Shown here one piece after another: positions 1 to 5,493 of a DNA stretch of 64,000 nt. Position 1 is the stretch's first letter. Each line of letters begins with the position of its first letter. Source of the DNA: Subtercola boreus. Its GTDB lineage: Bacteria; Actinomycetota; Actinomycetes; Actinomycetales; Microbacteriaceae. The DNA lies in assembly GCF_003399625.1 (NCBI RefSeq), contig NZ_NBXA01000007.1:248001-312000 (forward strand). Direction: 5' to 3'. A program made the translations under genes and the position numbers. The notes under the pieces were generated by a model. It was not told the DNA's origin. It did not search any database and saw only the letters and a program-made list of their open reading frames with translations.

Positions 1-386
1 CGGCGGAGGTCATCGCCGAGCTGGTGGCGCTGGCCCGCGAGGTCGCGGCAGAGGCGGCGCGTGGTTCGCGCTTCACCCCGCCGCTGAACAGCGACGAGCT
101 GGCGTTCTACGACGCGGTCGCGGCGAACGAATCAGCCGTCGAAGTGCAGGGTGAAGGCGTGCTCGCGGCCATCGCGCGCCAGCTCGTCGACATCATGCGG
201 CGTGATGTGCGCACCGACTGGACCGTGCGCGACGACGTGCGGGCGAAACTCCGCTCATCGATCAAGCGACTGCTGGTGCTGAACGGCTACCCGCCCGACA
301 GGCAGCCTGAGGCGATCAAACTCGTGATGGAGCAGACGGAGTCGATGGCGCCGCGCTACAGCGCGGAGCGCGAAGTGGTGGGCTGA
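1..386 (+). CDS. hsdR: Type I restriction enzyme R subunit, C-terminal fragment
   Basis: The frame is open from the left edge (first full codon at base 3) to TGA at 384-386, giving about 127 residues of a C-terminus. The run LVDIMRRDVRTDWTVRDDV, followed by RAKLRSSIKRLL and NGYPPDRQPEA, matches the helical C-terminal domain (DUF3387-like) of HsdR subunits. HsdR supplies the ATP-driven DNA translocation and cleavage activity of type I restriction-modification complexes; the motor and nuclease domains lie outside the window. hsdM and hsdS are not visible here, so whether the system is complete is unknown. The next gene starts 66 bp downstream on the same strand. Confidence 0.8.
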   Translation, partial: AEVIAELVALAREVAAEAARGSRFTPPLNSDELAFYDAVAANESAVEVQGEGVLAAIARQLVDIMRRDVRTDWTVRDDVRAKLRSSIKRLLVLNGYPPDRQPEAIKLVMEQTESMAPRYSAEREVVG

Positions 387-1103: not shown

Positions 1104-3308
1104 ATGAGTGACGATATTCAGATTTCAGGCGAGTCAGGCCCAGGGGACCAGAGCGAGGGCGAGCGCAGAATGCCTCTCGGCCTGGTTTTTCCGTGGTTGG
1201 AGGGCGCCGATGATCTCGCTTTCGACATCGACGTTCCGCCGGGCGGGACGCTGGACGAATTCACCAAGGCCCGCGTTGCCAACGTCGCGGTCGAGAGTCG
1301 CAGCTCTTGGGGGCTGGGCGATCTGTTCCCATCGGTTCCGGGAGCGACGTCGCGCCGCGAGTACAGCTCAAGCGTGCGGCTTGTCAATGTGCTCGACCGC
1401 GAGCGACTCGACACGTTCGCCGACCTCGCAGAACGTAGTCTGGTCGAGGTGATGGCGCTCCGCAATATGGGCGCAAAATCGGTGAACGAACTGCTCACAT
1501 CCTTGGTTGAACTGGGGCTGACGCACGCATTGACCGAACCGCGCGCCGATATCGGCGCGGCCGGAGAGTTGGGTTCAGGGATGGCAGCGGCGGGCTCGTC
1601 AACGCGGCGCCGAACGCGCAGGGCATCCGAAGTGCCGGGAGCCCTGTCCGTTACCGACCGCCTCCGGGATGATCTCGAGATTCTGAGTCAGTGGAATGTC
1701 GCGCGAGGTCAGTCCTCGAGTCCCCTCCTCGGCAACCCGTTCGACACGGCTGGCGCGCCGACCTTTGTCTCCGACGCTGCCGATCGGGTGTTCCATTTGA
1801 CGTCGACTGACTGGCTTGGCGCTGACGCCCACTTCGACAGCCTCGGGGATCTGCTCTCGGAGGAGGTGCTGGCTCTCGGCGAGAGGGAACAGGACATCGT
1901 CGTGCTGCGCCTGGCCAGTCTTGACCGCCTCAGTCTGGATGCGCTGGGCGACCGCATGGGCGTCACCAGGGAGCGGGTTCGTCAGATTGAGGCGAAACTT
2001 AAGTTGCGCATTCAGGCTTGGATAGCGCCCGACACGTTGCTCGGTATGCGTGCAGCAGCACTCCGACAACGTGCGGATCCCGTTGCGCACGTCGACGACG
2101 TGCTCACGGACATCCCGAGCGCGGCGGGTTCCGTGATCTCCTCTGATGTGCCGGCGTGGCTTTTCCTCGACCTGCTCGACGACGGGTTCGAGAGCGACGG
2201 TGACTGGCTGGCCGTTCCCTCATGGCAAGCCGTGGTCGAAGAGGTGAAGGTGCGATTCGACCAGTTGGCGGGCCCGCACGGTTCCGCTCCGGACGATTTG
2301 CTCCTCGACTCGTTGACGGAGTGGAGCGGCCTTAGTGAAAAGCGCGTAGGCGAGCTACTCCGCGATCTGGAGTACCTGCCGGTTCGCGGGGGCTGGGTTC
2401 ATTTGGAGAGGCGTTCCCTCCCGAACTTCGTAGCCGCCTACCTCGAGCGGCGCCAGGAAGCATGTTCACTTGACGAACTCGACGCGGCCGTGCCCTACGA
2501 GCATTCGACTGTGTCGCTCCGGAATGCGCTCGCGGTCGATGAGCGACTTATCCGTGTCGGGCGTGAGAACTGGGAGCTGACTTCGTGGGGCGGCGAAGCT
2601 TACGCGGGCATCAAAGACGCCATCGCCCGTGCCCTCGACTCCGCCGACGGTGTTGTGGCGATCCAGACCCTGGTCGATGACCTCGCGCCCCGGTTCAACG
2701 TCGCCGAGACAAGCGTGCGTGCCTATGCCGCGGCCTACCCGTTCACTCTGGCGCAGGGTCTGGTTCGGTACGCGACCGAGCGGAAGGTTCGACCAAAGAG
2801 TCCTGGACAGACGCGCCGCCTCTACCTCGGTGACGGTGACGGTGAGGTGCGGTTTCGCCTGACGGTCACGAAAGATCACCTTCGCGGCAGCGGGAGCCCC
2901 GTGCAGAGCGGGGTAGCAGCTGCGCTCCATGTGCAGCCGGGAACCAAGTCCGGATTCTCGGGGCCGGCCGGATCCATCACGCTCAGTTGGGTCAATCCGC
3001 AACCCCAGCTCAGCAGCATCCGCTCCATCCTGATCGCGATCGATGCGGCCCTCGGCAACGAGATCATGCTTGCGTGGTCAGCCGGAGTCGTTACAGCGTG
3101 GGTAGTGGACGAGAGCCCGCCCGAAGCTCTGCAGCAAGCGTCCGCGCTGATGGGCATCCGTTCAGTGCGTGGCGACATTGCCCGGGACAGGACGGCAATC
3201 GCGCGAGCCATCGACCTGGACGAAACCGCAACGTGGAGCCAGATCCGCGAGCGGCTGGATGCTCGCGGTGAAGCCGACCTGACTGAGTTGCTCGACGCTC
3301 TGACCTGA
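1104..3308 (+). CDS. Alpha-CTD-like plus sigma region 4-like DNA-binding protein, 734 aa
   Basis: ATG at 1104. Residues about 88-139 (SVRLVNVLDRERLDTFADLA ... LRNMGAKSVNELLTSLVELGL) follow the helix-hairpin-helix pattern of the RNA polymerase alpha subunit C-terminal domain. Residues about 256-303 (LGEREQDIVVLRL ... LGDRMGVTRERVRQIEAKL) follow sigma-70 region 4, including the recognition helix. The remaining 430 residues look like several winged-helix or HTH units (e.g. LSEKRVGELLRDLEYLPVRG near 410) and a C-terminal domain that I cannot name. No sigma region 2 is present, so it is not a complete sigma factor. It probably binds DNA or RNA polymerase; its place beside hsdR suggests defence-island regulation, but that is inference. 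Confidence 0.7.
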   Translation: MSDDIQISGESGPGDQSEGERRMPLGLVFPWLEGADDLAFDIDVPPGGTLDEFTKARVANVAVESRSSWGLGDLFPSVPGATSRREYSSSVRLVNVLDRERLDTFADLAERSLVEVMALRNMGAKSVNELLTSLVELGLTHALTEPRADIGAAGELGSGMAAAGSSTRRRTRRASEVPGALSVTDRLRDDLEILSQWNVARGQSSSPLLGNPFDTAGAPTFVSDAADRVFHLTSTDWLGADAHFDSLGDLLSEEVLALGEREQDIVVLRLASLDRLSLDALGDRMGVTRERVRQIEAKLKLRIQAWIAPDTLLGMRAAALRQRADPVAHVDDVLTDIPSAAGSVISSDVPAWLFLDLLDDGFESDGDWLAVPSWQAVVEEVKVRFDQLAGPHGSAPDDLLLDSLTEWSGLSEKRVGELLRDLEYLPVRGGWVHLERRSLPNFVAAYLERRQEACSLDELDAAVPYEHSTVSLRNALAVDERLIRVGRENWELTSWGGEAYAGIKDAIARALDSADGVVAIQTLVDDLAPRFNVAETSVRAYAAAYPFTLAQGLVRYATERKVRPKSPGQTRRLYLGDGDGEVRFRLTVTKDHLRGSGSPVQSGVAAALHVQPGTKSGFSGPAGSITLSWVNPQPQLSSIRSILIAIDAALGNEIMLAWSAGVVTAWVVDESPPEALQQASALMGIRSVRGDIARDRTAIARAIDLDETATWSQIRERLDARGEADLTELLDALT

Positions 3309-3417: not shown

Positions 3418-3963
3418 TTGCCAGTTTTCGACTCTCCTTCCCGGTGCAGCCTTGGGCAGCACGTCCGGTTCCGGTGGTACGGCTACCCTCCTGCGGAGGT
3501 CGGCGATGACATCGAGACAGCCGTCGATGTACTGTTCGAGTCGATCGACGGCGGGAGCCGTGTCTGGAACCTCTACAACGAGCGGATGGTGAGGAGCGAG
3601 TTTCGAGCGCGGATTCTGTCGGCTCAACGAGGTGAACTGTCACCGATAGACGAAATCAAATCGGTCGACGTACGAAACCCGCCGCCGCTCTACGAGATCC
3701 GGTGGCAGGGAATCACGGTGACATCGCTGCTGGAGGCCGGGAAGAAGCGCTTCGACCAGGTTCTGGTTCGCCAATATCATTCGGAACCAGTGGCCGCTCC
3801 TGGCTACTTCATCGGCCATCACGCTCACGAGAAAGTTGTGAGCGGCGGCACTGTGAGCGAGAGGCAAGACGCCGAGATTGCAGTTGCCAAACGCTTTTAC
3901 GACGCTGGAAGCGCTTCAGGCTGGGGAATCGAACCTGGTCAAAGAGTACCCAGCGATATATAG
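3418..3963 (+). CDS. Hypothetical protein, first gene of an XRE cassette
   Basis: A TTG start at 3418 is supported by GAGAGG at 3404-3409, about 8 nt upstream; no ATG or GTG gives a better start. The product has 181 residues, is soluble and of mixed charge, with a central YEIRWQGITVTSLLEAGKKR segment and a GYFIGHHAHEKVV segment. I do not recognise a family. It ends 8 bp before an XRE-type regulator on the same strand. That spacing is typical of toxin-antitoxin pairs, so this could be the effector partner, but no RelE, HigB or other toxin motif is clear. Confidence 0.6.
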   Translation: MPVFDSPSRCSLGQHVRFRWYGYPPAEVGDDIETAVDVLFESIDGGSRVWNLYNERMVRSEFRARILSAQRGELSPIDEIKSVDVRNPPPLYEIRWQGITVTSLLEAGKKRFDQVLVRQYHSEPVAAPGYFIGHHAHEKVVSGGTVSERQDAEIAVAKRFYDAGSASGWGIEPGQRVPSDI

Positions 3964-3971
3964 TTTAATCT

Positions 3972-4292
3972 ATGAATGACGACGTGAGGCGGATCGACAA
4001 TCGTGCGGACTCCCTAGTGGAAAGTCACACTCAGATGATGCGCGACCTGATTGGGCTCCGCAAGAAGCACGACCTCTCGCAGGAGACTGTTGCGGGGCGA
4101 ATGGGAGTCAGCCAACCCACTGTGGCCGCCTTCGAACGCTACGATTCCAACCCGACACTCTCGAGCATCCGGCGGTATGCGCTTGCAGTGGGCGCGCGAA
4201 TCCGACACTCCGTCGATGACGACTGCGCCGAGGATGATCTGCTGGAATTCGACGCCGACCTCGGCTCCTCGCAGCACGAAGAGAGCCGCTAG
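3972..4292 (+). CDS. XRE-family helix-turn-helix protein, antitoxin-like
   Basis: ATG at 3972, 106 aa. A single XRE helix-turn-helix covers about residues 22-75: DLIGLRKKHDLSQETVAGRM, then GVSQPTVAAFERYDSNPTLS, then RRYALAVGARI. The tail is strongly acidic (DDDCAEDDLLEFDADL). This small HTH-plus-acidic-tail layout is common in antitoxins and cassette autoregulators. It follows the TTG-start gene by 8 bp and is followed 2 bp later by a 61-aa ORF, so the three are probably one transcript. DNA binding is confidently inferred from the HTH; the antitoxin role is a guess from context. Confidence 0.75.
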   Translation: MNDDVRRIDNRADSLVESHTQMMRDLIGLRKKHDLSQETVAGRMGVSQPTVAAFERYDSNPTLSSIRRYALAVGARIRHSVDDDCAEDDLLEFDADLGSSQHEESR

Positions 4293-4706: not shown

Positions 4707-4715
4707 TGGTATGCT
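4707..4715 (+). promoter_or_regulatory. Extended -10 promoter for the DUF3800-associated RNA
   Basis: TG-G-TATGCT: TG at 4707-4708 and TATGCT at 4710-4715 form an extended -10 element; no good -35 is present at 17 nt. Transcription would start near 4722, just ahead of the paired region at 4743-4830. Confidence 0.45.
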
Positions 4716-4742
4716 CACTTATGCAGCGCGGGTAGCTCGTTC

Positions 4743-4831
4743 GGATCGCCCAGATCCTTGCCGGTGAGGCGTTATGCCCCAGGAGTCCATGGACTGCCTG
4801 GGGCTGCTTTCTTCATGGGGGCTTCACCGGG
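4743..4831 (+). ncRNA. Structured RNA upstream of a DUF3800 gene
   Basis: Three nested or adjacent stems can be drawn by eye. GGATC (4743-4747) pairs with GATCC (4753-4757) around a 5-nt loop. CCGGTGA (4761-4767) pairs with TCACCGG (4824-4830). Inside that, GCCCCAGG (4776-4783) pairs with CCTGGGGC (4797-4804), capped by the palindrome AGTCCATGGACT (4784-4795). The RNA-structure survey by Weinberg and colleagues described many conserved motifs (the DUF3800 RNA motifs) upstream of DUF3800 genes; this element fits that arrangement. Which numbered class it belongs to, and whether it acts in cis or as a separate RNA, cannot be told from sequence alone. Confidence 0.6.
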
Positions 4832-4884
4832 GAACAAACATCAACGAGAAGCTTGCCCGCCTCTATGCCGAGAATCGTCGGCCG

Positions 4885-5460
4885 GTGGCTTTTGTCGACG
4901 AGAGCTATGAAACGCGGGGCCTCGACACCTTCTACGTCATCGGTGTGGCGGTGGTGAACCACGAAGAAACTGCACCTACTCGGGTCAAGCTCGGCAGCTT
5001 CTATGGAGGGCAGGCGCTGCACGCGGCACCGATGTTCGCCAACCGGGAGATAGCTTCGCTTCGCCAGGCAACCGAGCTCGTGGCACAGCAGAACGATGGA
5101 CTCGATGTGGTGGTCTGTGCGCCGATTGAACCGGCAGGGGGTCGGGACTCCGCGCGCCAGCGGTGCCTGGTTGCGGCGGTGACCAAAGTGCAGAGGGACT
5201 TCGGAAGCCTGCTCTTCGTGATCGATTCGCTGGGAACGCCGACCGAGAACCAGGTCGATCAACATTCCTTCCGAGACCTCAGACGACGACCGCTGGCTGG
5301 CATCGACCGGGACACGGTTGCGGTGCACTGCCGACCGTCAGAGGAGATTTTACTCGGTCTGCCCGACGTGTTGGCCTGGGCCTACCGGCAGCTGCACGTG
5401 GGACGTGATGCGGGTTGGTTCGAACCACTGCGCCAATACTGCGACGTCACGATGCTCTGA
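4885..5460 (+). CDS. DUF3800 domain protein
   Basis: The protein opens with VAFVDESYETRGLDTFYVIG, the FVDES plus following beta-strand pattern of DUF3800, a family thought to have an RNase H-like fold. It ends with LLGLPDVLAWAYRQ, matching the D-(L/V)-(I/L/V)-A-W motif near the DUF3800 C-terminus. The start is unresolved: the frame is open up to ATG 4774, but that ATG and the one at 4789 lie inside the hairpins of the upstream RNA, so they are unlikely starts. GTG 4885 is used here. A GGGGA at 4829-4833 suggests initiation near 4840, where only ATC is in frame. The gene probably works with the RNA; no biochemical role is established. Confidence 0.7.
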   Translation: MAFVDESYETRGLDTFYVIGVAVVNHEETAPTRVKLGSFYGGQALHAAPMFANREIASLRQATELVAQQNDGLDVVVCAPIEPAGGRDSARQRCLVAAVTKVQRDFGSLLFVIDSLGTPTENQVDQHSFRDLRRRPLAGIDRDTVAVHCRPSEEILLGLPDVLAWAYRQLHVGRDAGWFEPLRQYCDVTML

Positions 5461-5493
5461 CGGGACGGGGGCGAGGAGCGAGGGGAGCGGGGG

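Follow-up and report, generated by a model that had tools for sequence, protein, structure and literature searches.

In a 64,000-nucleotide stretch of Subtercola boreus DNA, referred to here as the window, a gene for a DUF3800-type protein with an N-terminal FVDES motif lies behind a segment that folds stably as RNA, raising the question of whether this segment is an RNA element of its own and how it might act together with the gene. Weinberg and colleagues are said to have described, in 2017, DUF3800 RNA motifs next to DUF3800 genes. A preliminary description of the locus had placed three stems at 4743-4830. The segment ahead of the gene does fold stably as a single sequence (minimum free energy, MFE, -55.9 kcal/mol; z -2.28; 6 of 200 shuffles equally stable); the bounds of the conserved element, family A, are those given in Table 1, corresponding to approximately 89 nt. 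The RNA was judged to be real because of the comparison with relatives, the single-sequence stability alone being modest, and we regard it as very likely that it represents a structured RNA family tied to a divergent DUF3800 gene. The single-sequence fold is dominated by an outer stem pairing approximately 4761-4770 with 4820-4829 and touching the ribosome-binding site. This stem lies outside the conserved structure and is not conserved among the copies (in genome G373, a 6-bp version at most can be drawn by eye), and neither is the proposed coupling of RNA folding to the ribosome-binding site through it.

A first covariance model was built from five copies, and a DNA pattern scan of genome and viral collections added further ones. 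The set used for covariation comprised 12 distinct copies aligned by MAFFT, not fitted to the covariance model; together with L078 and L080, 14 copies were available. The window RNA scored 100 bits with model R1 and 92.1 bits with model R3, both models having been trained on sets that include it. RNAalifold and pair counts on the 12 aligned copies yielded a three-way junction, in which P1 joins the 5' end to the 3' end, the long P2 arm ends in a variable tip, and the GC-rich P3 arm contains an inner GUC/GAC stem. Paired cells accounted for 95.2% of 331 (28 pairs in 12 copies), a figure favored by the choice of the consensus structure on the same alignment, compared to at most 45.1% after sliding of the partners, and none of 500 shuffled controls matched the real alignment on any of five measures. 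The preliminary description had made the RNA depend on covariation in aligned homologous loci; such covariation is present, with 12 of the 28 pairs varying on both sides. It is distributed unevenly. The base of P2 (4726-4729/4769-4772) is paired in every copy and almost invariant, and both-side changes occur at all nine pairs of the upper P2 helices (alignment columns 15-27/38-50), which in the window correspond to 4735-4737/4763-4765, 4740/4760, and 4743-4747/4753-4757 at the variable tip. One of the seven P3 pairs switches from A-U to G-C in three copies, the other six being invariant or broken only by unpaired cells. The P2 base and six of the seven P3 pairs are therefore untouched by the covariation test, since none of them varies on both sides. 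One of the five P1 pairs is U-U in the window, and MFE folding of the single sequences from G373 and UBA6152 did not recover the consensus.

Table 1. Features of the RNA and DUF3800 locus (window coordinates).
Feature	Position	Strand	Details	Basis
Extended -10 element	4707-4715	+	TGG + TATGCT	TANNNT box count across copies
Structured RNA, family A (very likely)	4721-4809	+	P1 closing stem, P2 arm, P3 arm	Covariance model and covariation
P1	4721-4725 / 4805-4809	+		2 of 5 pairs vary on both sides across copies
P2 arm	4726-4772	+	Several helices	Pair counts over aligned copies
P3 arm	4776-4804	+	GCCCCAG/CUGGGGC, inner GUC-NNNN-GAC	
P1 3' strand and start of weak U-rich stretch	4805-4812	+	Terminator-like	T counts 3' of the RNA
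DUF3800-type gene	4840-5460	+	206 aa from likely AUC start at 4840; stop 5458-5460	

None of the Rfam DUF3800 models matched the window segment at E <= 10; the sole match was to an unrelated snoRNA, in the opposite orientation (E 4.4). Rfam likewise gave no match in the window at the gathering cut-off and none at E <= 1 at the loci of eight other copies, and at the phage locus described below its two matches were unrelated and both outside the RNA. The family is unmatched in Rfam; an RNA beside a DUF3800 gene as such is of a known kind. Two papers on such RNAs give names of Rfam motifs of the DUF3800 type, e.g. DUF3800-I (RF02969) and DUF3800-IX (RF02968), in an Rfam update (PMC11701678), and describe a pair in the DUF3800-IX RNA (PMC7657543). 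No functional study of RNAs beside DUF3800 genes was found among open-licence papers.

Within the searched samples the range of family A is narrow, comprising, as far as searched, Microbacteriaceae and one phage. At the family level 6 of 398 genomes had a copy, at the genus level 3 of 12, and in Cryobacterium 4 of 57; among 396 order genomes and 394 class genomes there was one each, in both cases the window's own genome. These samples overlap. The window genome has a single real copy (100 bits, the next match scoring 21.2). In the pattern scan of genome contigs, the RNA was found in 7 of 10 stretches, while L041, L044, and L047 are without it. Plasmid DNA gave only short and partial matches to the RNA.

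In 8 of the 14 copies the RNA directly precedes a DUF3800-type gene, which is broken in two of them. The gene-linked copies are those of the window, G373, G314 (Cryobacterium cheniae), G1145, Cryobacterium frigoriphilum (L039), UBA6152, G007, and G146a; a further locus, L079 of G1134, is identical to L039 over the compared part. The four closest homologues found by the protein search alone (G373, G314, G007, and G146) all have the RNA ahead of the gene. In G007 the RNA fold is kept and the protein is without its N-terminal FVDES part; in G146a the fold is kept while the gene is split into three parts and carries a stop. The other six copies are not accompanied by a DUF3800 gene: Alpinimonas psychrophila (G083) and a Microbacteriaceae metagenome-assembled genome (G146) have two each, and Cryobacterium (G1140) and a viral contig one each. 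Among these, G146b is separated by approximately 250 bp from G146a with its broken gene, and at the corresponding place G083 has just the RNA. Between the two species, this RNA (G083a and G146b) is 96.7% identical, compared to 45.5% and 54.0% for the 200-nt flanks, and farther upstream the neighborhood aligns again at 81%. At the other shared place (G083b and G146c) there is no such contrast between RNA and flanks, the RNA being 69.3%, the downstream flank 73.3%, and the upstream flank 43.1% identical. Over ten pairs of loci, identity was 72-93% for the RNA versus 53-63% for coding DNA. A protein search for remnants of a DUF3800 gene at the G083, G146c, and phage loci gave no credible match (best E 0.12). 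The copy of G1140 (L080 1501-1590) is a decayed RNA of 42.8 bits, with a downstream region like the leader of C. frigoriphilum and without a DUF3800 gene.

The possible extended -10 element noted earlier ahead of the RNA was confirmed by comparison among copies. A TANNNT box 5-7 nt 5' of the RNA occurs in 11 of the 14 copies versus 57 of 2352 control positions (2.4%) taken from the upstream DNA of these copies. It is absent from G083b, G1140, and the phage copy, and three of the six gene-free copies retain it. As read by eye, TGN precedes six of the nine boxes marked at 5-7 nt. We read the element as a putative RNA gene of its own. In the 10 nt 3' of the RNA there are 4 T in the window, 3-7 in 13 of the 14 copies, and 1 in the phage copy, and TTTAA occurs within 12 nt past the RNA in nine of 14 copies, the window not being among them. 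A strong terminator tract is visible in some copies only, and the terminator-like end is weak in several, including the window.

Matches to the window protein were obtained in 14 of 398 family genomes, its own included (E <= 0.001). The protein itself did not match PF12686 (cut-off 21 bits) at E <= 1; a 44% identical homologue in UBA6152 (L046) reached 33.2 bits, and by this relation the window protein is probably a divergent DUF3800 member. Of other homologues, the distant L014 scored 21.6 bits and L003 12.6 bits, and L002 and L039 gave no match. FxDE, D140, and D176 are kept in the protein alignment. AlphaFold models were weak (mean pLDDT 55.1 and 52.2); with the first of them, the top-ranking Foldseek matches included EndoV, RNase H1, RuvC, and Argonaute at a TM score of about 0.3, with none at E <= 0.001. 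A protein-based scan of genome contigs returned 41 pattern stretches and no relative. As stated in two papers, DUF3800 is a domain of RNase H fold associated with non-coding RNAs or CRISPR loci, some of class 2 (PMC10910872, PMC12669027), and the window protein is a predicted nuclease.

That there is no good start codon outside the structure was borne out. Between the RNA and FVDES, the only in-frame candidate in the window is a GTG two codons before FVDES, and the in-frame ATG codons at 4774 and 4789 both lie inside the RNA. In G373 and G314 no in-frame ATG, GTG, or TTG precedes FxDES, and in C. frigoriphilum such codons occur only inside or ahead of the RNA. Of the five distinct intact genes, those of the window, G373, G314, and C. 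frigoriphilum have AUC or AUU at the proposed start position, and that of UBA6152 has GUG; G1145, nearly identical to G314, has AUU. A G-rich, Shine-Dalgarno-like run was seen by eye 4-6 nt ahead of this codon. Because ATG, GTG, and TTG are mostly absent and AUC/AUU aligns with the GUG of UBA6152, we propose that the DUF3800 gene is likely translated from AUC or AUU.

RNA and gene were found inserted together at an otherwise empty site. In G373, 882 bp comprising both follow a MarR gene, compared to 96 bp in the relative G770, with flanks of 91% and 88% identity. G203 gave no RNA match and is outside the genomes with a protein match; its similarity to the window starts at 5463, just past the DUF3800 stop. 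The ORF lists for the window and G373 show no transposase ORF from the RNA to the end of the gene. RNA and downstream gene form a compact two-part cassette, which we propose to be mobile. On the contig of the C. cheniae cassette, a TrwC relaxase gene (L036 3300-7118) points to a mobile setting.

Restriction genes lie near three copies, those of the window, UBA6152, and G083a. The hsdR "remnant" reported earlier at the start of the window (1-386) is the C-terminal end of a full-length HsdR gene of 1062 aa, truncated only by the window edge and with a Methylase_S gene ahead of it; HsdS/HsdR are situated 4.3 kb ahead of the RNA. In UBA6152 a ResIII gene (L046 5138-7564) is 57 bp from the RNA, and a GmrSD restriction gene (L040 4824-6977) is 41 bp from the gene-free G083a RNA. 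The only neighbors identified in G373 are the MarR gene and, at a distance of 1.4 kb, a PIN/antitoxin-type pair, and two neighbors in C. frigoriphilum had no Pfam match. Defence neighbors are thus not universal among the copies. Elsewhere in the window, positions 1104-3308 encode a 734-aa protein with matches to sigma-70 region 4 and the RNA polymerase alpha C-terminal domain, to our knowledge an unusual pairing, and 3418-4292 contains a 181-aa ORF without Pfam match followed by an HTH_3 protein, which could be a type II toxin-antitoxin pair.

The phage copy, on IMGVR_UViG_3300048858_000134 (L049), scored 74.4 bits with a covariance model built without the phage sequence. Its P1 is GCGCAA/UUGCGC, with two pairs changed on both sides, and its P3 has one mismatch. 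The RNA follows genes for tRNA-Trp, -Leu, and -Phe on the same strand and is followed by an exonuclease gene; this tRNA cluster, directly ahead of the RNA, occupies L049 2712-3195. No DUF3800 gene was present in the 6.4 kb examined of the 41.5-kb contig, and no DUF3800 relatives were found in the phage collection or the viral contigs searched. DNA comparison with the phage collection and the viral scans yielded no further phage copies; in phages Jace and Catfish, the surroundings of the exonuclease gene did not contain the RNA (best 9.5 bits). Seven other stretches from the viral scan (L050, L051, and L087-L091) look like coding sequence and were rejected.

We also examined 15 distant DUF3800 loci, nine from the family protein search and six of 21 plasmid records. 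The final covariance model gave three matches at E <= 5. Two of them, in a Cellulosimicrobium plasmid (L081; 25.8 bits, E 0.0032) and in a Rhodococcus plasmid (L084; 19.5 bits, E 0.055), lie on the opposite strand just past the DUF3800 domain, and each shows a -10-like box and a T-rich end in addition to P1 and P3; the 11-bit match of L085 is a chance match elsewhere. A script that looked for P1 together with a P3 arm bearing GCUNCGGC at its apex was written after the motif had been seen in L006, L013, and L081, and these three are not independent; the flanks of L006 and L013 hold the convergent RNA. In its relaxed form the script located an RNA antisense to the DUF3800 gene in 12 of 15 loci (missing in L010, L011, and L014) and a same-strand candidate in L009 and L010, compared to a score of at least 12 on 70 of 600 shuffled strands; the covariance model caught two of the 12. 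With box and T-rich end required, it matched 8 of 15 loci, antisense in all, versus none in 314,528 strand-bases of other DNA including six close-group genomes (302,176 without two loci counted twice). P1 strands paired better with their own partner than across loci (mean 6.75 versus 5.13; at least 7 in 5 of 12 versus 19 of 132), a modest margin. The MAFFT alignment of the convergent RNAs was too loose for covariation, and Rfam gave no match on them, only two tRNAs and weak matches outside. These patterns suggest that, in this branch, a small RNA is kept with the DUF3800 gene in either of two layouts; they do not prove common descent.

How, then, might RNA and protein act together? The chances are about even that the RNA, as a gene of its own type within a mobile DUF3800 cassette, would be a trans-acting, antitoxin-like partner of a nuclease. 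The RNA would be made in excess over DUF3800 mRNA, and read-through past its 3' end would yield a little of this mRNA, weakly translated from AUC or AUU. The RNA might then bind the RNase H-like protein in trans and restrain or direct it, infection would upset the balance and free the nuclease, and the gene-free chromosomal copies and the phage copy could serve as antitoxin-like decoys. That the RNA would be a trans-acting inhibitor is suggested by analogy with AbiF/RCd22 and with the phage mimic of the ToxIN antitoxin, and by this analogy inhibition appears more likely than guidance of the nuclease. We counted in favor of the whole the covariation, the box, the stronger conservation of RNA than of coding DNA, the gene-free and broken-gene copies, the conservation between G083a and G146b, the phage copy, the empty site, the nearby restriction genes, and both precedents. 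Against it we counted the uneven covariation, the choice of the structure on the alignment used for counting, single-sequence folds off the consensus, weak terminators, the single RNA unit, the lack of a box, the single T, and the P3 mismatch in the phage copy, the decay in G1140, the loss of the box in G083b and its RNA being no better conserved than the downstream flank, the closeness of G146b to the broken cassette, and the patchy defence neighbors. A structured RNA does stand beside a DUF3800-type gene, and the RNA-protein unit suggested in the preliminary description gained support from the gene-free and phage copies, the cassette, and the restriction genes near some copies; its role in defence or as a toxin-antitoxin pair is putative. 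An extended version, in which an antiviral module has the three-way-junction RNA hold the DUF3800 nuclease in either layout, with AUC/AUU starts, and is countered by the phage RNA copy, is possible but on the whole rather doubtful.

The position of the RNA directly ahead of the gene in 8 of 14 copies, its terminator-like end in several of them, and a ribosome-binding site just downstream would also suit a cis-acting leader, in which the P3/P1 hairpin and U-rich end halt transcription unless a signal melts the hairpin and no independent RNA is formed. This attenuator is unlikely, since six copies stand without a DUF3800 gene, three of them with a promoter box, since two species share a strongly conserved gene-free copy at one and the same place, and since the convergent placement at distant homologues, if that RNA is related, cannot be a leader. 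It is likewise improbable that the RNA, instead of inhibiting the nuclease, is a scaffold needed for its activity, perhaps with a targeting part. The conserved core with its variable P2 tip and the description of DUF3800 as an RNase H fold present in some class 2 CRISPR loci (PMC10910872, PMC12669027) are in line with such a cofactor; however, the variable tip is self-paired, leaving no free guide visible, and the RNA outlasts the protein in several genomes. The copy conserved without a gene at the same place in two species would be expected of an independent Microbacteriaceae sRNA family beside which DUF3800 genes land by chance, but the joint insertion at the empty site, the RNA at all four closest protein-search homologues, and similar RNAs adjoining distant DUF3800 genes make this very unlikely. 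Finally, a coding N-terminal extension or leader peptide from ATG 4774, which is in frame with the protein in the window and would encode a MPQxSxDxLGLL-like peptide that looks conserved in gene-linked copies, was rejected as practically untenable on the frame offsets, because the frame 4774-4885 is not conserved as protein (offsets 0/1/2/2/1/1 in the six copies where FxDES could be placed), there is no common frame end, two gene-free copies have a stop after five codons and two others no ATG, and the changes follow base pairing.

With its well-marked RNA ends, broken genes, and gene-free and phage copies, the cassette offers a direct test of RNA-controlled DUF3800 nucleases in defence. It shares with the Rfam motifs of the DUF3800 type a structured RNA beside a DUF3800 gene, and differs in that the window RNA is unmatched by their models. 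In classical type III toxin-antitoxin systems, tandem repeats make up the antitoxin RNA, which precedes the toxin gene. The antitoxin-like reading preferred here resembles such systems, e.g. ToxIN, in an RNA ahead of a putative nuclease gene and in a phage that carries a copy or mimic of the RNA; phage-encoded mimics of the RNA antitoxin suppress ToxIN (PMC3475682). In contrast, there is one RNA unit here without tandem repeats, the protein family is another, and toxicity is presumed. Closest in layout is AbiF/Abi_2 with RCd22 (abiF motif RF03085, type III-like), with a promoter, an RNA of approximately 100 nt, a terminator, and then the toxin gene, read-through giving a longer transcript, and neutralization of the AbiF protein by RCd22 RNA in cis and trans (PMC12373285). 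The same order of promoter, RNA of about 100 nt, terminator, and toxin gene would apply to the present cassette; its protein, however, is of the DUF3800 type without a Pfam Abi_2 match, its RNA has no RF03085 match, and its activity is a predicted one.
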